Of a stretch of 64,000 nucleotides of DNA, positions 23,249 to 35,962 are shown piece by piece (positions within the stretch are counted from its first letter, which is position 1; each line of letters starts with the position of its first letter). The translations under genes and the position numbers were made by a program. The stretch comes from Gemmatimonadota bacterium (GTDB taxonomy: Bacteria > JAAXHH01): NCBI GenBank assembly GCA_009835325.1, contig VXWP01000091.1:1-64000 (forward strand), in the 5' to 3' direction. The notes beneath the pieces were generated by a model that worked only from the letters and a program-made list of their open reading frames with translations, searched no databases and was not told the origin of the DNA.

Positions 23249-23857
23249 ATGAAGGTCAAGGAACATCATTCGGACATGCCAGATCACTTTGCCGGGCACC
23301 AGGTCCATCTGCAAACCACGCGCCTGCAACTTCGTCCTTTCCGGGAGGCAGATTTCGAGATCGCGGAGGCCTACTACCAGGATCCCGAATTCCTGAATGC
23401 CATGGAAGGAGAACCGCCGGCCGATCCTCCGACGGCGGATTCGCTCACGCGGGTGGGCAGGATCATGGCAGAGCAAGGGTTTCTTTTTGCCATCGTGGAA
23501 AAGGCGAGCGGCAGGACGATCGGCGAGGTATGCCTTCAGTGGATGAATCTGGACCGCGCAAAGATTCCGGACGAGAAGGTGATGCGCATGCCGATCGGGA
23601 TTTGGGACAAGTCCTTGTGGGGCCGAGGATATGGCAGGGAAGTAGTATGCTGTTTGATGGAGTACGCGTTTGAGGTGCTGGAAATCGACCGGCTTCGTCC
23701 TGTGGATGTTTCCATGGACAACGCCCGTTCCGTCGCGCTATGGCGGGCCTGCGGACTGAGGATCGCCTGCGAATCGTCGGACAGAAAGCTGGATTTCGAG
23801 ATCACGCGATCGGAATACGTCCGGCAACCCCCGTTTCATCCCGATCAGAATCCATAA
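23249..23857 (+). CDS. GNAT acetyltransferase, RimJ/RimL-like
   Basis: This 202-residue GNAT protein begins its conserved part with LQTTRLQLRPFREADFE, typical of the RimJ/RimL subgroup, and has IGIWDKSLWGRGYGREVV (acetyl-CoA loop) and SMDNARSVALWRACGL (motif B). An in-frame ATG at 23276 could also serve as the start. It probably acetylates a protein N-terminus or small amine. Confidence 0.85.
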   Translation: MKVKEHHSDMPDHFAGHQVHLQTTRLQLRPFREADFEIAEAYYQDPEFLNAMEGEPPADPPTADSLTRVGRIMAEQGFLFAIVEKASGRTIGEVCLQWMNLDRAKIPDEKVMRMPIGIWDKSLWGRGYGREVVCCLMEYAFEVLEIDRLRPVDVSMDNARSVALWRACGLRIACESSDRKLDFEITRSEYVRQPPFHPDQNP

Positions 23858-23912: not shown

Positions 23913-24398
23913 CTACTCCACCCGGCTGAACGCCAGGCGCTCTCCGGCGAATCCCTCGCGCCAGACGCTCGTACACGCCTCCACCATCTCCTCGAGATTC
24001 TCCGTAACCTCGCCAAAGCGATTACCTGGAACCAGGCCCATGTTGGGCGACAGGATCAGATTGTCCCGTCCGTAGAAGATCGCAAGATCGACCAGACCCG
24101 TACTGAACGCGGCCTCGCGCAACGATGGCACATTGACGGCGCCGGGGGGAAAGAAGAAGTAAAGCAGATCGCCGGTGATCGGCGTAACGGTGGGATTCTC
24201 CATACCCGGCTCACTCGGTGCGAAGGATGGGACGAGGGTATAGACTTCGTTGCTCGCGTACTTGGCGTGATAGGCATCATTCTCCTGCGGCAAGGCATTC
24301 CACACCGCCTCGCACGTCTTCGGCGCGAGGTCGTCCAGCAATCGCGCGATGCAGCTCACGCCCCGTTTCTTCAAGGTCACTTCAATATAACGATCCAT
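23913..24398 (-). CDS. DUF3830 family protein (cyclophilin-like)
   Basis: This 161-residue protein matches DUF3830: RYIEVTLKKRGVSCIARLLDDLAPKTCEAVWNALP (in parts), SNEVYTLVP, GDLLYFFFPPG and a C-terminal GNRFGEVTENLEEM. The family has a cyclophilin-like barrel and is repeatedly found beside amidohydrolases and racemase-fold enzymes; its role is unknown. AAGGAG lies six bases before ATG. It is the last gene of a three-gene operon, 28 bases after the isomerase-like gene. Confidence 0.85.
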   Translation of the reverse strand: MDRYIEVTLKKRGVSCIARLLDDLAPKTCEAVWNALPQENDAYHAKYASNEVYTLVPSFAPSEPGMENPTVTPITGDLLYFFFPPGAVNVPSLREAAFSTGLVDLAIFYGRDNLILSPNMGLVPGNRFGEVTENLEEMVEACTSVWREGFAGERLAFSRVE

Positions 24399-24426
24399 AC
24401 ATTTCTCCTTAGGTACCCGTCAAACG

Positions 24427-25152
24427 TTATGCGATGACTTCCATCAACCGTCCCAGACCGGACTGCGGCGTCAGACGGTTTGCCAGGCGCAGGGCCTCCC
24501 ACAACGTCACCTGGTTTGCCGTCAGCACCGTTTTGCCGACCGCCGTCTCGAGTTCAGACAGAATACCAACGGTGTGCAACGCGGTGTCGGGGATCAGCAA
24601 CGCCTCAGCGTTTGGATGATCGTTGGCTCGTGCGAAGCGCAGGACCTCTTCGCGTTCAATGAGCGCAGACTCATCCCCCGTCCAGACCCCAAGACAACCC
24701 ATGTGTACCACCTCGATCCCATCCGACTCGAGAAAAGTGCGAAAGGCTTTCGACAGGGCTGCCGGGTAGGTCGCGGCGACGGCGACCTTTCTCAGACCGA
24801 GGGCTTTGCAAGCGCTGAGGAACGCCAGCGACGTACTCGATGACGGAACGCCGAGCGCATCGGCAAGATCCTGCGCCTGGCGCCGCGCACCTTTCAGGCC
24901 GAAGACGAAACTCCCGCTCGTGCACGCCCACGTACAGACGTCGACGTCTTGAGGACGCAACTCCTCCACCCCGGCGAGCAGGTATTCCCGGCTTCCGGTG
25001 ATCTGAGTCTCGTCGATACGATGCAGGTTCGGGCTGTCGGTATGGACCACCCGGACATCCACCGCGGGCTTCAGCGCGGCTGCGAGTCGGGGGTAGTCGT
25101 CTTCCGCGGAATGGAGCGGATAAAGTATGCCGACCTTCACTGTGTTGCCCAT
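24427..25152 (-). CDS. Asp/Glu racemase-fold enzyme (maleate isomerase/arylmalonate decarboxylase-like)
   Basis: The product has 241 residues of the racemase fold: VGILYPLHSAEDDYPRL, the nucleophilic Cys region CTWACTSGSFVFG (about residues 73-85), VAVAATYPAALSKAF and TANQVTLWEALRLA. The second catalytic position, Cys in maleate isomerases (around residue 194), falls in LLIPDTALHTVG and has no Cys. A single-Cys chemistry like arylmalonate decarboxylase, or another reaction, is possible. It lies between acetoacetate-decarboxylase-like and DUF3830 genes. Confidence 0.8.
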   Translation of the reverse strand: MGNTVKVGILYPLHSAEDDYPRLAAALKPAVDVRVVHTDSPNLHRIDETQITGSREYLLAGVEELRPQDVDVCTWACTSGSFVFGLKGARRQAQDLADALGVPSSSTSLAFLSACKALGLRKVAVAATYPAALSKAFRTFLESDGIEVVHMGCLGVWTGDESALIEREEVLRFARANDHPNAEALLIPDTALHTVGILSELETAVGKTVLTANQVTLWEALRLANRLTPQSGLGRLMEVIA

Positions 25153-25177
25153 CAGTTATGGTTACTCGCGCAATCCG

Positions 25178-26011
25178 TTACGGCCCATCGCTCAGATAGT
25201 CGTAAACAACCCGGGCATACCCTTCGGTGTAGCTGCTCTCCATGTGGAAGGCGTCGCCGTAGTCGAGCGGCGCGAGCGGCGTGAGGTCGCACCGCGGGGA
25301 AGCGCCGAGTTCGATGGTGCCCTTCCCCTGCGCGAAGGCGTGCACTTCCACGTCCTGTGTCGTTTCGCTGCAATCGATCAACTGTTTGAGGGCAAGTCCC
25401 GGACCGTCGGCCCGGGGTATGATCTTCAGACGCCAGGCCGGGGTCAGGGCGGGCATCGCGGCGTGGCCAGCACCGACATCGGGCGCGGGACAGGTGCCGG
25501 GCGAGGCGCCGGCATCCTGCGAAGCGCCGGCGGCCTGGCCGGCACCGGCATCCTGGGGAGCGCCGGCATCCACGTTCGAGGCGATGCGCAACACCGGCAC
25601 GCCGCCATAGGAGGTTTCCGTCACCATAGACCGGCCCGCATGGGTCACTTTCATTTCCGCATACACCTTCGGCGTCCCGTAGATCTCCCGGCCCGCGGCG
25701 ATGCCGGCGGGACCGTTGTGGAACACATGGGAGCAGTAGAACCCGGTCTGATCCCGGAAATGGCACTTCATCACGATAAAGGACTCTTCGAAGGGGCCGT
25801 AGTTTTTACAATCTGGCACCTCCAAGCCGGAGGCCACGCACATCCCGTCTTCAGCCGCCTGCAGGGGCTCCGGAAGGAATCCCTGCACGGCGGACGGCGC
25901 GGCGTGGAAGAAGACAAACTGGAATCGCACGTTTCGATAGACCGCCGGAAGCGGGGGATAGAAGGGGCTCCCCGCCGGAATGTTCCAACCGTAATCGTGT
26001 TTGAGTCTCAT
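25178..26011 (-). CDS. Acetoacetate decarboxylase family protein with repeat insertion
   Basis: The product has 277 residues; ATG 26011 was chosen because AGGAG lies seven bases upstream, rejecting the longer frame to 26068. GREIYGTPKVYAEMK places the Schiff-base lysine at residue 115, matching the clostridial enzyme, with Glu75/76 in YGPFEESF. A low-complexity segment (about 148-188), made of six-residue repeats such as DAGAPQ and DAGAGQ, interrupts the fold and is absent from typical members. It is the first gene of the operon. Members may act as decarboxylases or aldolase-like enzymes. Confidence 0.83.
   Translation of the reverse strand: MRLKHDYGWNIPAGSPFYPPLPAVYRNVRFQFVFFHAAPSAVQGFLPEPLQAAEDGMCVASGLEVPDCKNYGPFEESFIVMKCHFRDQTGFYCSHVFHNGPAGIAAGREIYGTPKVYAEMKVTHAGRSMVTETSYGGVPVLRIASNVDAGAPQDAGAGQAAGASQDAGASPGTCPAPDVGAGHAAMPALTPAWRLKIIPRADGPGLALKQLIDCSETTQDVEVHAFAQGKGTIELGASPRCDLTPLAPLDYGDAFHMESSYTEGYARVVYDYLSDGP
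25506..25571. repeat. 18-bp tandem repeat inside the decarboxylase gene
   Basis: Three 18-base units start at 25506, 25524 and 25542, each beginning GCGCCGGC or GCACCGGC, and a partial fourth starts at 25560. The period is a multiple of three, so copy-number change keeps the frame and adds or removes six residues. Confidence 0.75.
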
Positions 26012-26226
26012 GTCCGGTTCTCCTGCGACATGTCCGGGTCTCCAACGACACGGTTTGGGACCTTGCAACTTGTCATTAACTTAATCGATCAACATATTAG
26101 GTACAGGATGAATCCGTCAGCATCTTCGTCAACGTCTCCGTCAAGGTCTGCACCGGTGCCTGCTACTACCGTATCAACAGGAAGCGGGTGGCCCCGGACC
26201 GTTTCCCTTACCGCAATAACCTAACC

Positions 26227-32347: not shown

Positions 32348-33571
32348 TCAGGAACTGGAAATCTGCGGCGGCCGCAACCCGGTGTATCTGGCCCGCGGCC
32401 GGATGAGCTGGTCCCTTTCGTACTGTTCGATCGCGTGTCCGATCCAGCCTGCCGTGCGGCCGAGGGCGAACAGGGCCATGGCGCTGCCTTCGGGCATGTT
32501 GAGGACGCGCACCAGGGCCGTGAGGGCCAAGTCGATGTTGTACCGGTCCGGGACCAGTCGATGGGTCGTTTCGATGATTTCCCGCGCAAGCAGCAGGTCC
32601 TTGGATCCCGGAAACCGATCCTCCAGCTTGCGCAACAGCAGGCTCGCCCGAGGGTCCACGTCGCGGTATACGGCGTGGCCGAACCCTGGTATCTTTTCAC
32701 CAAGTCGCAGCCTGTTGGCAATCGCCCGTTCAACGCTGCCGATCGATTCCGCCTCCTGAAACAGCGCTTCGACCCGCTCGCTGGCAGCGCCGTGCTTGTA
32801 GCCGCGCAGTGCCGCGAGTCCCGCGCATACCGCACTGTAGGGCGTCGTTCCCGCCGATGCGGCGCATCGTACGGTAAAGGTCGATACATTCAGTTCGTGA
32901 TCCGCGAACAACACCAGGGTCGTATTGATCAGTTCCGCCGCGCCATCAATCTCCGGCGCCCAGGCCCTTCGCAACGCCTGCGCGATCCCGCCCATCGGGT
33001 CTTCGCCCGTGGCCACGCCTGTCATGAACCAGAGAATACGCATGCCCGTCGCGGCGACCGTGTCCCGCCGCAGGTCCAGTGCGGCCAGGTCATCCGCCTC
33101 AGCCAGGGGAAGCAAAATCTGGAAGCGTTCGACAGGCTTGAGCTTCTTCAATTTCAACCAGCTTTCGCGGTAGTCCCTCTGGTAGGTGTTTGAGAAAATC
33201 GGAAAAGAAAACCGCTTGTCATTCGTCCAGATCAAAGCCGCGACACGCTCGAACGACTCGTTCGCCGCCAGGATCGTCGCGTCCCGGCCGCGGTAGAACA
33301 GCCGTTCATCCGTGATCAGCGTGATCGCCGATTCCAGGATCGGATCCCCCGTGTGCAGGGCCCTTTTTACCGCCCATCCCGGATTCCGGCGGGCGCGCTT
33401 GCGGGCTTTCAGCCGTTCGATGTCTTCACTGCGATACAACCGCTTCCGCCGACCGTCGCCGCTTGCTTCCGACCGGATCATACCGCGGCTTACATACGCA
33501 TAGAGCGTCGACGGACTGACGTTCAGCGCGGAGGCCGCTTCGGTGGATGTCATGTATCTTCTGCTGTTCAT
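32348..33571 (-). CDS. Citrate synthase family protein with N-terminal HTH
   Basis: This 407-residue fusion starts at ATG 33571, with GAGAGGA six bases upstream. Residues 1-55 form a MerR/excisionase-like helix-turn-helix (MTSTEAASALNVSPSTLYAYVSRG, in parts). The rest is a citrate synthase fold with FADHELNVSTFTVR, PGFGHAVYRDVDPRA and an Asp-containing YNIDLALTAL. HTH-citrate synthases are a known but poorly characterised group. The HTH could autoregulate from the palindromes in the divergent promoter region. It lacks a recognisable second domain segment typical of short HTH-free forms, so enzymatic competence is unproven. Confidence 0.85.
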   Translation of the reverse strand: MNSRRYMTSTEAASALNVSPSTLYAYVSRGMIRSEASGDGRRKRLYRSEDIERLKARKRARRNPGWAVKRALHTGDPILESAITLITDERLFYRGRDATILAANESFERVAALIWTNDKRFSFPIFSNTYQRDYRESWLKLKKLKPVERFQILLPLAEADDLAALDLRRDTVAATGMRILWFMTGVATGEDPMGGIAQALRRAWAPEIDGAAELINTTLVLFADHELNVSTFTVRCAASAGTTPYSAVCAGLAALRGYKHGAASERVEALFQEAESIGSVERAIANRLRLGEKIPGFGHAVYRDVDPRASLLLRKLEDRFPGSKDLLLAREIIETTHRLVPDRYNIDLALTALVRVLNMPEGSAMALFALGRTAGWIGHAIEQYERDQLIRPRARYTGLRPPQISSS

Positions 33572-33660
33572 GAAAGATCCTCTCGTTTTGATGGCCGCTC
33601 GGTTTGATGGTCCGCCGTTTTGATGGCCCGCCGGGGTATGTCCCATTTCAAGAATATATG

Positions 33661-33697: not shown

Positions 33698-33758
33698 ATC
33701 ACCTTTTGTTAGATACAGACGGACCCTCTGGCCATCTGCCTGATATAGGAGCAACACT

Positions 33759-34838
33759 TTGCACCAGATCGCCGAATTGCCCGGAGACGGGATCGGACCT
33801 GAGATCACCCGCGAGGCCGTTAAGGTGTTGAAGGCTGTGGGGGAGCGGCACCAGCTGGACCTAGTTTTTTCCCACCACCTGGTCGGTGGAGCGCTGATCG
33901 ATGCACAGGGTGTCGCATTGTCCGATGAGGTCGTGGAGGCTTGCAGGCGTAGCGACGCGGTGCTCTTCGGCGCGGTGGGCGGCCCCCAATGGGACCACCT
34001 GGACATGCAGGACCGGGCGGACCATGCCCTGATTCGTCTGCGGCAGGAACTTTCCGTCTATGCGAATCTGCGGCAGTTCAGGTTGTACCCGGGGCTGGAA
34101 GACGCGTCCGCGGTCAAAGCCGATCTCATAAGCGGGGGTGTTGATTTCATCATCCTGCGCGAGCTTTCCAGCGGCGCCTATTACGGACAACCCAAGTTCA
34201 GCGAAGTCACCCCCAGCGGCAGAAGGGCCGTCGATACCATCGAGTACTACGATTTCCAGGTCGAACGACTGACGCGTTACGGATACGAATTGGCGCGACA
34301 AAGGCGTGGCAGACTGACCTCGATGTCGAAGTGGAACGCCCTGGAATCCTCCAGGCTCTGGCGCGATGTCGTCGAGGAGGTGGCCGCGGAATATCCCGAT
34401 GTCGATACGCGGCACGAAATAGTCGACGCGGGTGCCATGAACCTGATTCAGCGGCCCGCCGAGTACGACGTGATCGTCATGCCCAACATGTTCGGTGATA
34501 TACTGGGCGACGAGGCGGCCGTGCTTGCCGGGTCTATCGGAATGGTCCCGTCAGCGGAGATTTCGCTGGACGGCACCTCGCTGTATGAGCCGATTCACGG
34601 GAGTGCGAATGACATCGAAGGCAAGAACATCGCGAATCCCATCGGAACGATCCTGAGCGGCGCCCTGATGTTCCGGTACAGCCTGGACTGTCCCGACGGC
34701 GCCGACGAGATCGAACGCGCGGTCGGCAGGGTGATCGAAGAAGGATACAGGACCGCGGACATCCTGAGGTCGCCCGGTCAACAGAGGGTATCCACGTCGG
34801 AAATGGGCGATCTGGTGGTTGAAATGTTAAGGGAGTGA
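33759..34838 (+). CDS. Isopropylmalate/isocitrate dehydrogenase family protein
   Basis: The product has 359 residues from a TTG start, with AGGAG upstream. It begins IAELPGDGIGPEITREAVKVL and has the Arg motif LRQELSVYANLR, the tyrosine motif RELSSGAYYGQPK and NMFGDILGDEAAVLAGSIGM, as in LeuB. The catalytic lysine region reads SMSKWNALESSRLWR (Lys191) instead of the usual DKANV. It should oxidatively decarboxylate a 2-alkylmalate-type acid with NAD. The neighbouring genes encode two citrate synthases rather than LeuA/LeuCD, so its substrate may not be 3-isopropylmalate. Confidence 0.86.
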   Translation: MHQIAELPGDGIGPEITREAVKVLKAVGERHQLDLVFSHHLVGGALIDAQGVALSDEVVEACRRSDAVLFGAVGGPQWDHLDMQDRADHALIRLRQELSVYANLRQFRLYPGLEDASAVKADLISGGVDFIILRELSSGAYYGQPKFSEVTPSGRRAVDTIEYYDFQVERLTRYGYELARQRRGRLTSMSKWNALESSRLWRDVVEEVAAEYPDVDTRHEIVDAGAMNLIQRPAEYDVIVMPNMFGDILGDEAAVLAGSIGMVPSAEISLDGTSLYEPIHGSANDIEGKNIANPIGTILSGALMFRYSLDCPDGADEIERAVGRVIEEGYRTADILRSPGQQRVSTSEMGDLVVEMLRE

Positions 34839-34840
34839 TC

Positions 34841-35962
34841 ATGTCTTACTCACCTGGACTCAAGGACGTCGTAGCGGCGGAAACCCGCCTGAGTCATGTG
34901 GACGGCGAAGCCGGCAAACTGGTCATCGGAGGATATCCACTCGAGGAGATCGCGGATCGGGCGACCTATGAGGAGATGGTCTGCCTCCTGTGGCACGGAA
35001 GGCTGCCCACCGAGGCTGCCCTCGAGGGATTCGCCGGCGAACTGGCCGCGAGCCGGACGCTGTCCGGTGTCACCCACGATCTGTTGCGCGGCGCGGCGAA
35101 GGAGAAACGCCCCGTCATCGACGCCGTCCGCATGGCTGTCGCGTCCCTTCCCTCCATCGACGACACGGCGGACGCCCGGACCCTGGTGGCCGGACTGCCG
35201 ACCATCGTGGCGGCCTACTGGCGCCTGCTGCACTGTAAAGAGCCGGTGGAACCCGACGTCAGTCTTAGCCACACGGCCAATCTGCTGTACATGCTGCACG
35301 GTGAAATCCCGCGCGATGACCGGGTACGTGCGCTCACGACCTATCTCAACACCGTGATCGATCACGGCATGAACGCCTCCACCTTCACGGCGCGGGTCAT
35401 CGTTTCCACGCGTTCAGACTTCAACTCCGCCGTTACGGGTGCGATCGGCGCGCTCAAGGGACCATTGCACGGTGGTGCGCCGGGACCGGTCATCGCCATG
35501 CTCGAAGCCATCGGCGCCTCCGATAACGCCGATCCCTTCCTGCGAGCGAAACTTGATTCCGGGGAACGGCTCATGGGTTTCGGACACGCGGTTTACCGGG
35601 TTCGTGACCCGCGGGCCGACGTCCTTTCGCGCGCCGCGCGCGCATTCTTCGACCGTGAAGTCGACAACCGTGAGGACGACCTGTACGCCCTGGCCCTGCA
35701 CGTCGAGAAAACCGCCCTCGAACTCCTCGAAGAATACAAACCCGGCCGGCGCCTGCAGACCAACGTCGAGTTCTATACCGCCCTCCTCCTCAAGGGGCTG
35801 GGTCTCCACCCGGACCTCTTCACCCCTATGTTCGCCGTGGGACGCGTCGCCGGCTGGACGGCACATTGCATCGAGCAGCGGATCGTCGACCGCATCTTTC
35901 GCCCGGAATCCCATTACTCGGGCGAGATGATCAGGCGGTGGACGTCCCGTGACGAGCGGTAG
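34841..35962 (+). CDS. Citrate synthase/methylcitrate synthase family protein
   Basis: This 373-residue citrate synthase starts at ATG 34841, with AAGGGAG five bases upstream; a GTG at 34835 overlaps the previous stop. The catalytic His regions IDHGMNASTFTARVI and LMGFGHAVYRVRDPR are present, as is FAVGRVAGWTAHCIEQ. The position usually Asp reads Glu in TNVEFYTALL. It condenses acetyl-CoA with a 2-oxoacid; oxaloacetate is not guaranteed. It shares an operon with the dehydrogenase and is opposite the HTH-citrate synthase. Confidence 0.88.
   Translation: MSYSPGLKDVVAAETRLSHVDGEAGKLVIGGYPLEEIADRATYEEMVCLLWHGRLPTEAALEGFAGELAASRTLSGVTHDLLRGAAKEKRPVIDAVRMAVASLPSIDDTADARTLVAGLPTIVAAYWRLLHCKEPVEPDVSLSHTANLLYMLHGEIPRDDRVRALTTYLNTVIDHGMNASTFTARVIVSTRSDFNSAVTGAIGALKGPLHGGAPGPVIAMLEAIGASDNADPFLRAKLDSGERLMGFGHAVYRVRDPRADVLSRAARAFFDREVDNREDDLYALALHVEKTALELLEEYKPGRRLQTNVEFYTALLLKGLGLHPDLFTPMFAVGRVAGWTAHCIEQRIVDRIFRPESHYSGEMIRRWTSRDER

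Follow-up and report, generated by a model that had tools for sequence, protein, structure and literature searches.

A racemase-fold protein with a conserved Cys/Asp pair, linked to one DUF3830 subfamily, as a candidate catabolic isomerase

Results

The DNA analysed here, which we call the window, is a stretch of 64,000 nucleotides from a Gemmatimonadota bacterium (contig VXWP01000091.1). At positions 23913-26011 of its minus strand we confirmed three genes which encode, in this order, a protein resembling acetoacetate decarboxylase (ADC), a protein of the racemase fold and a DUF3830 protein; the gaps between them are 25 and 28 bp, and the order is kept in relatives, so that the short-spaced operon described by an earlier sequence-only reading holds. 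In the following, racemase-fold proteins like that of the window are named type B, and their two-cysteine paralogue is named type A. We tentatively propose that, within the Asp/Glu racemase superfamily, type B forms a functional class of its own: an aspartate has taken the place of the second catalytic cysteine, which would yield an acid/base pair with an undescribed reaction. Type B would work with DUF3830, whose cyclophilin-like fold is common to Pictet-Spenglerases, in one undescribed catabolic step; this step would be used by actinobacteria, by bacteria of the Latescibacterota type and by others, and the residue pair would degenerate upon loss of DUF3830.

The linkage of the two genes was followed in 84,980 species genomes, which were scanned with a DUF3830 alignment. 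At least 570 relatives came up, of which the 80 best were retained; this sample is therefore biased to near relatives. Within it, a type B gene lies within about 8 kb of DUF3830 in 71 of 80 loci; the distance is at most 1.5 kb in 54 of these 71, and 69 have both genes on the same strand. Among the nine loci without a nearby B, six belong to genomes with a B-level match elsewhere (324-391 bits), and the genomes of the other three (G630, G633, G636) gave no B-level match (140, 146 and 111 bits). To reduce this bias, an even sample of 246 genomes was taken across the phylum to which genome G124, actinobacterial by gene order, belongs. Twelve of them have a high-scoring DUF3830 and 16 have B (E <= 1e-60); the two coincide in 11, where the genes are at most 6 kb apart in 10 cases and about 85 kb apart in G124. 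High and low DUF3830 scores were told apart by eye, with the limit set where the values drop from 188 to 114 bits; B accompanied 11 of 12 high-scoring cases versus none of the 15 genomes that have a lower-scoring DUF3830 only. The corresponding Fisher p-value for the 246 genomes, 1.3e-14, makes the association look stronger than it is, since the genomes are related. Counter-cases are G260, G478, G553, G564 and G617, which have B without DUF3830 (E <= 1e-20), and G587, which has DUF3830 without B and whose contig measures 5 kb. A broad sample of 384 genomes was also scanned. Leaving aside the window's order, DUF3830 occurs there in G076, G124 and G159 and B (above 300 bits) in G124 and G260, such that G124 is the sole genome with both. 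Judged from gene content, the linkage of B and DUF3830 holds for one DUF3830 subfamily; the earlier remark that DUF3830 recurs near racemase-fold enzymes is thus right and more general than could be seen from the window. Three plasmid matches for DUF3830 were also obtained, at 28-30% identity.

The second line of evidence is the state of the active site. In an alignment with arylmalonate decarboxylase (AMDase), whose row was the G74C mutant, G74 corresponds to Cys77 of the window protein, C188 to Asp189, and the dioxyanion-hole residues T75/S76/Y126 to T78/S79/Y129, which are kept in type B. The near-relative set comprised 73 proteins, namely the 71 B proteins from the 80 loci, that of the window and one Nitratireductor plasmid protein. 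Cys77, Asp189, Pro188 and Trp75 are each present in 73 of 73. The pair was likewise found in all nine genomes with type B among 12 genomes of the genus (G000-G011) and in G629, G631, G632, G634, G635 and G637. Type A residues could be read in 59 proteins out of the 64 loci with A, and all 59 have a Cys/Cys pair as well as a tyrosine at position 75. Type B hence shows the fold of the superfamily with an active-site cysteine and a Thr/Ser/Tyr dioxyanion hole, and in place of the second of two opposed catalytic cysteines it has Asp in 73 of 73. The sequence-only reading had noted that the second catalytic Cys is lacking: there is indeed no cysteine at the Cys188 position. Because the pair is kept throughout the 73 proteins, this state is a conserved replacement and neither a loss nor decay, and inactivity by loss of key residues, which would have spoken against that reading, finds no support in the lineage or its near relatives.

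A tree of 43 rows (23 B including Nitratireductor, 12 A and 8 others) separates B from A by a branch with support 100/100. One protein that falls with B, that of R. jaguaris, bears Cys (LLPCTA); it pairs with the Nitratireductor protein, which bears Asp. The other 22 B rows group at 97/83, and both outliers sit on long branches which the tree tool flagged as unsafe. Two alphaproteobacterial plasmid relatives of B (L139 2866-3684 and L023 7788-8561) differ at position 189, one having Cys (LLPCTA) and the other Asp (LIPDTA), which possibly reflects a second switch or a reversal.

The AlphaFold model of the racemase-fold protein has a mean pLDDT (predicted local distance difference test) of 96 and a pTM (predicted template modelling score) of 0.94. 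Its closest solved folds are the maleate isomerases 4fq5 (Z 33.2, 1.6 Å, 236 aligned residues) and 2xed (Z 33.1), together with the AMDase double mutant G74C/C188S, 3ixl (Z 32.2, 2.0 Å, 230 aligned); Z values within 1 were treated as tied. PF01177 matches the protein with 22 bits, under its cut-off of 31.

The likeness to AMDase raises the question of whether B decarboxylates malonate-type acids in nature, with protonation from the face opposite to that used by AMDase. PMC12576825 describes an engineered (S)-selective G74C/C188S enzyme; B, with a Cys at the G74C position and no Cys at 188, carries the same swap, 3ixl is among its closest folds, and the T75/S76/Y126 equivalents are kept. AMDase of Bordetella (PF17645, NF052327) shares with B the fold (Z ~32), the dioxyanion hole and, as a prediction for B, cofactor-free carboxylate chemistry. 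In contrast to AMDase, however, B has Thr for G189, as do the EutA and type A rows, and in the pocket small or polar residues stand in for V156 (Gly/Ala) and M159 (Ser/Val). Moreover, the enediolate would be faced by an Asp, the residue at position 77 is Ser in some B proteins, and the score against NCBIfam model NF052327 is only 76.3 bits for a cut-off of 225. We regard such a decarboxylase as rather unlikely. According to PMC4996985, the hallmarks of AMDase are G74 with C188, and type B (C77, D189) has neither. Membership of B in AMDase, and likewise in EutA (TIGR02990, the best-scoring NCBIfam model, yet with 108.2 bits far under its cut-off of 318), was rejected on residues and cut-offs.

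The tie with 4fq5 and 2xed suggests a further option, a cis-trans isomerase like the maleate isomerases, in which Cys77 would add to the C=C bond and Asp189 would take over the acid role of the second cysteine. The first Cys is kept in B, 2xed holds by its entry title succinylcysteine in a C194S mutant, and some actinobacterial clusters contain a tartrate-dehydrogenase-type gene (TIGR02089, 508 bits versus a cut-off of 470; one protein scanned). Maleate isomerases usually need both cysteines, though, and B has Asp for the second; identity to them is about 20%, there is no maleate pathway context and no maleate-forming step is evident, and no adduct could form in those B proteins that have Ser77. 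This option appears quite unlikely.

How far the pair extends was read from 15 of the 16 B proteins of the even sample (G617 was left out). Asp189 is present in 13 of 15 (Gly in two) and Cys77 in nine (Ser in six). Eight of the 11 proteins from genomes with DUF3830 have Cys/Asp, and the other three, from genomes of one family (G447, G480, G545), have Ser/Asp. None of the four proteins from genomes without DUF3830 has the pair: G260 shows Ser/Gly, G564 Cys/Gly, and G478 and G553 Ser/Asp with further changes beside residue 77. Such a drift in the absence of DUF3830 agrees with a functional coupling of the two proteins. The broader claim that Cys77/Asp189 is invariant in all type B, true for the near-relative set, failed here and was narrowed: by alignment, the pair characterises the window's lineage and most DUF3830-linked B, but not every B-level match. 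Stops that had been flagged in four B matches (G004, G447, G543, G545) are terminal stop codons.

These residues bear on a reading in which B is a non-catalytic or regulatory partner, working only in complex with A or DUF3830. A and B occur together in 64 of the 80 loci, all actinobacterial, and A is never found without B in that sample; B tracks DUF3830; and A has Cys/Cys wherever both motifs are legible in the even-sample loci, while B varies (Ser/Asp in three genomes, an altered pair in four of four DUF3830-less proteins). On the other hand, the window's lineage has B but no A, and none of the 73 near-relative proteins deviates at the Cys, the Asp or the dioxyanion-hole positions. After the even-sample residues had been read, we raised our estimate for a partner role, which stays unlikely, and slightly lowered the already tentative one for the favoured reading.

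The neighbours of the pair point to small amides. Within the 80 loci we counted 2-hydroxyacid dehydrogenase in 60, GntR in 59, class III aminotransferase in 55, amidase in 52 and aldehyde dehydrogenase in 49. The usual layout in Saccharopolyspora, Nocardiopsis and Actinomadura is amidase plus 2-hydroxyacid dehydrogenase, divergent from DUF3830-A-B-GntR, often with genes for an SSADH-like dehydrogenase and a GABA-type aminotransferase. Amycolatopsis has DUF3830 next to the aminotransferase gene, some 5 kb from A-B; in Streptomyces the distance is about 3.5 kb, and the loci add an SBP_bac_3 ABC transporter (amino-acid-type), IclR and a luciferase-like monooxygenase. Loci L031 and L032 contain the same sequence clusters in the same order; in L031, a hydantoinase B gene stands on either side of the run ADC, methyltransferase, B, DUF3830. 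B is thus recurrently associated with genes for enzymes hydrolysing amide, lactam or amidine bonds, and because the B-DUF3830 pair recurs beside enzymes that break small amides, it probably represents a real but undescribed catabolic step. Pantothenate catabolism was considered for the actinobacteria and dropped, as no racemase step fits its biochemistry; D-malate was considered as a further candidate for the actinobacterial substrate. Four Streptomyces-like loci (L121-L124) keep B, the dehydrogenase, the ABC transporter and the luciferase-like monooxygenase; DUF3830, amidase and A are all missing from the 18 kb read, and residues 77 and/or 189 of their B proteins are altered.

Some of these contexts, with an amidine or amide hydrolase, an aminotransferase and SSADH, resemble those of EutA, and B could accordingly catalyse an EutA-type step in ectoine or hydroxyectoine use. 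In G629, G631 and G632, the three non-actinobacterial metagenome-assembled genomes whose separate B locus was read, B adjoins an M24 gene with ectoine hydrolase as best model; M24-like matches (28% and 41%) also lie near DUF3830 in L108 and L119. The SSADH- and aminotransferase-like genes of actinobacteria recall the eut-ssd-atf clusters which PMC5924519 describes for ectoine use. Against this stand the low score of B and those of the M24 neighbours, well under the ectoine-hydrolase cut-offs (cut-off 575 bits: 199 and 230 for the two genes searched with NCBIfam; cut-off 613: 135-151 for all three). Moreover, EutA is a two-Cys enzyme, its rows in the tree keep both cysteines, EutD was not found in the window genome at E <= 1e-15, and L108-L125 gave no EutE-like M20 match (eutB and eutC were not searched). 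We consider this step improbable.

The genus shows how the window's version of the module is built. The three-gene set is present in nine of the 12 genomes; window-type DUF3830 and type B occur in the same nine, and G001, G005 and G009 have neither. The ADC-like gene accompanies the two in eight loci (L001, L003, L004, L006-L010); it is also present in the ninth genome (G004, L125), where B and DUF3830 are about 1.3 kb apart. With L031 and L032, which have the methyltransferase gene inserted, the triplet recurs beyond the genus, and the pair alone is widespread; the possibility that the triplet occurs nowhere else is thereby removed. ADC was found in only six of the 80 loci (L033 is too short to show it either way), which makes the three-gene set a variant of the B-DUF3830 module specific to this lineage. 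In one genus member, an APH-like phosphotransferase gene lies between B and DUF3830 (L029 6726-7787). The window's own genome contains a second, distant DUF3830 of about 34% identity (L002 1161-1664, contig C87), near ORFs (open reading frames) judged by eye to be outer-membrane- or cytochrome-like; its score places it with the DUF3830 proteins whose occurrence is not linked to type B.

For the ADC-like protein, seven sequences were aligned to segments of the solved ADC-family chains 3bgt, 3c8w and 3bh2. Lys115 and Glu76, which we take to be the Schiff-base residues of acetoacetate decarboxylase, are kept in all seven. The positions R29, E61 and K116, presumably also functional in ADC, are Val, Ser and Val in seven of seven (V28, S61 and V116 in the window); an arginine one position on (29) in the window protein could partly replace R29. 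The protein thus resembles the acetoacetate decarboxylase superfamily (PF06314; PRK02265, MppR) in Lys115/Glu76 and in passing the Pfam cut-off, and departs from it at the three changed positions and by missing the cut-offs of PRK02265 (93.3 of 150 bits; 101.2 for the L029 relative) and MppR (19 of 380 bits). Judging from these residues, a Schiff-base reaction is likely and acetoacetate decarboxylation is not; ADC membership was rejected on residues and cut-offs. Of the six relatives aligned, only L028 has a long form of the DAGA-rich insertion that arises from an 18-bp repeat; in the others it is short or missing, and L027, L029, L031 and L032 lack it altogether.

The sequence-only reading had assigned to the set the degradation of a malonate- or acetoacetate-type acid, a view that has the Pfam family names ADC and Amdase in its favour. 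Both AMDase hallmarks are absent from B, which also misses the model's cut-off, and the missing ADC residues, together with the confinement of ADC to the window's lineage outside the wider module, make such a degradation highly improbable. The interpretation given there is therefore partly supported, and its substrate is not.

The DUF3830 protein matches the sequence of 3KOP (Arthrobacter sp. FB24; 4e-53, 54-55% identity), an entry whose title names no function and whose Arthrobacter relative (L074) adjoins A and B genes. Its model (pLDDT 93) has the same cyclophilin-like fold (Z 28.4, 1.7 Å, 155 residues). Next come the cyclophilin-like domains of the Pictet-Spenglerases McbB (Z 18.5, 2.0 Å, 133 aligned) and KslB (Z 18.3, 2.2 Å, 134), which as a group match at Z ~18 and 2.0-2.3 Å over ~133 residues, followed by TM1367 (Z 14.7) and cyclophilins (Z ~13). 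McbB His43 and Asn49 align with the conserved H44 and N50; Glu97, which we take to be the catalytic residue of McbB, aligns with G121, in a weak alignment. McbB-like Pictet-Spengler chemistry was rejected despite the strong fold match: the catalytic Glu is unaligned, the C-terminal second domain is absent from a protein of just 161 residues, and the sequence link is weak (hhalign probability 31, hmmsearch E 0.3). The fold likeness may serve as a lead to C-N bond chemistry for DUF3830, not as evidence for it.

Discussion

Among the readings considered we favour, tentatively, that B is a Cys77/Asp189 proton-transfer isomerase in the catabolism of a small amide- or lactam-type compound. A small carboxylate, an intermediate released by the amide-cleaving step, would bind in the dioxyanion hole, and B would move a proton at its alpha carbon, resulting in racemisation, epimerisation or a double-bond shift, with Cys77 on one face and Asp189 as acid/base on the opposite one. 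DUF3830 would help with an adjacent step, in which perhaps a ring is opened or an imine handled. For the window's lineage, we suppose that the product might then pass to the ADC-like protein, which as a Schiff-base (Lys115/Glu76) enzyme would decarboxylate or cleave a keto acid. The compound ultimately degraded is probably an amino-acid-like amide, a lactam or a compatible-solute-type compound, and not acetoacetate or an arylmalonate.

Several findings weigh against this isomerase. Loci L108, L109 and L110 (G480, G447, G545) have Ser77/Asp189 despite having kept DUF3830, A, amidase and dehydrogenase, which implies either that Ser can serve or that the first residue is not an essential base. 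The window genome (G000, 95% complete) has a single Amdase-family match and so no type A partner, and it gave no EutD-like M24 hydrolase (TIGR02993, E <= 1e-15); among the partner genes tested in the window, only a leuB relative of TTUC was found. The amide-cleaving step is thus not seen in the source organism. Finally, the literature surveyed contains no description of an Asp in this role.

A full-text search of 5.39 million texts, outside of which most subscription papers lie, found the name DUF3830 in no paper; none joins the cyclophilin-like fold, a racemase and an operon, and none joins maleate cis-trans isomerase, 2-hydroxyacid dehydrogenase and amidase. By tying one DUF3830 subfamily, whose structure 3KOP has been solved since 2009, to a Cys/Asp racemase-fold enzyme, the present analysis gives an assayable hypothesis for both. 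According to PMC12576825, position 188 of AMDase has been changed by hand by engineers; the Cys-to-Asp switch at this stereochemistry-controlling residue offers them a natural experiment. As the actinobacterial version (amidase, dehydrogenase, A, B, GntR) resides in named cultured strains, the pathway is genetically testable.

Additional features of the locus

The positions of the genes and of the residues discussed are compiled in Table 1.

Table 1. Coordinates of the three genes, the Cys77 and Asp189 codons and the repeat within the window
Feature	Position	Strand	Remarks
ADC-like gene, first of operon	25178..26011	-	277 aa; PF06314 117 bits vs cut-off 29.8, 1.5e-33
Type B racemase-fold gene	24427..25152	-	241 aa; PF17645 Amdase 83 bits vs cut-off 25.9, 3.3e-23
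DUF3830 gene, last of operon	23913..24398	-	161 aa; PF12903 180.2 bits vs gathering cut-off 26, 2.8e-53
Cys77 codon (AMDase position 74, first racemase Cys)	24922..24924	-	alignment with AMDase
Asp189 codon (AMDase Cys188, second racemase Cys)	24586..24588	-	alignment with AMDase
18-bp imperfect repeat, Asp-Ala-Gly-Ala-rich insertion in ADC-like protein	25501..25571	-	TRF 3.9 copies, 73% matches

The genes on either side are on the opposite strand (GNAT ends at 23857, sulfatase starts at 26188), so that, judged by layout, the three genes form a unit of their own; counts of promoters and terminators at the operon are no higher than in shuffled sequence. Ratios of non-synonymous to synonymous substitution rates against six relatives were 0.07-0.16 for DUF3830, 0.05-0.17 for the racemase-fold gene and 0.07-0.16 for the ADC-like gene, values by which all three are under purifying selection. 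Decay to pseudogenes was ruled out by the kept residues and these low ratios, and a phage origin was set aside, as a PHROGs search of the three proteins returned no match. The source assembly comprises 3.68 Mb in 119 contigs; its nearest named relatives are metagenome-assembled genomes labelled Latescibacterota, and others are labelled Gemmatimonadetes or Poribacteria.

Across the start of the ADC-like gene lies a 20-bp unit in about two copies (26009-26050). Farther along the window, a TTUC-like match at 33756-34799 proved to be leuB (424 vs 353 bits) and is no member of the module. This leuB gene (33759-34838) and a second citrate-synthase-like frame, assigned by eye (34835-35962), adjoin a gene at 32348-33646, which encodes a citrate-synthase-like protein with, by eye, an N-terminal helix-turn-helix domain.

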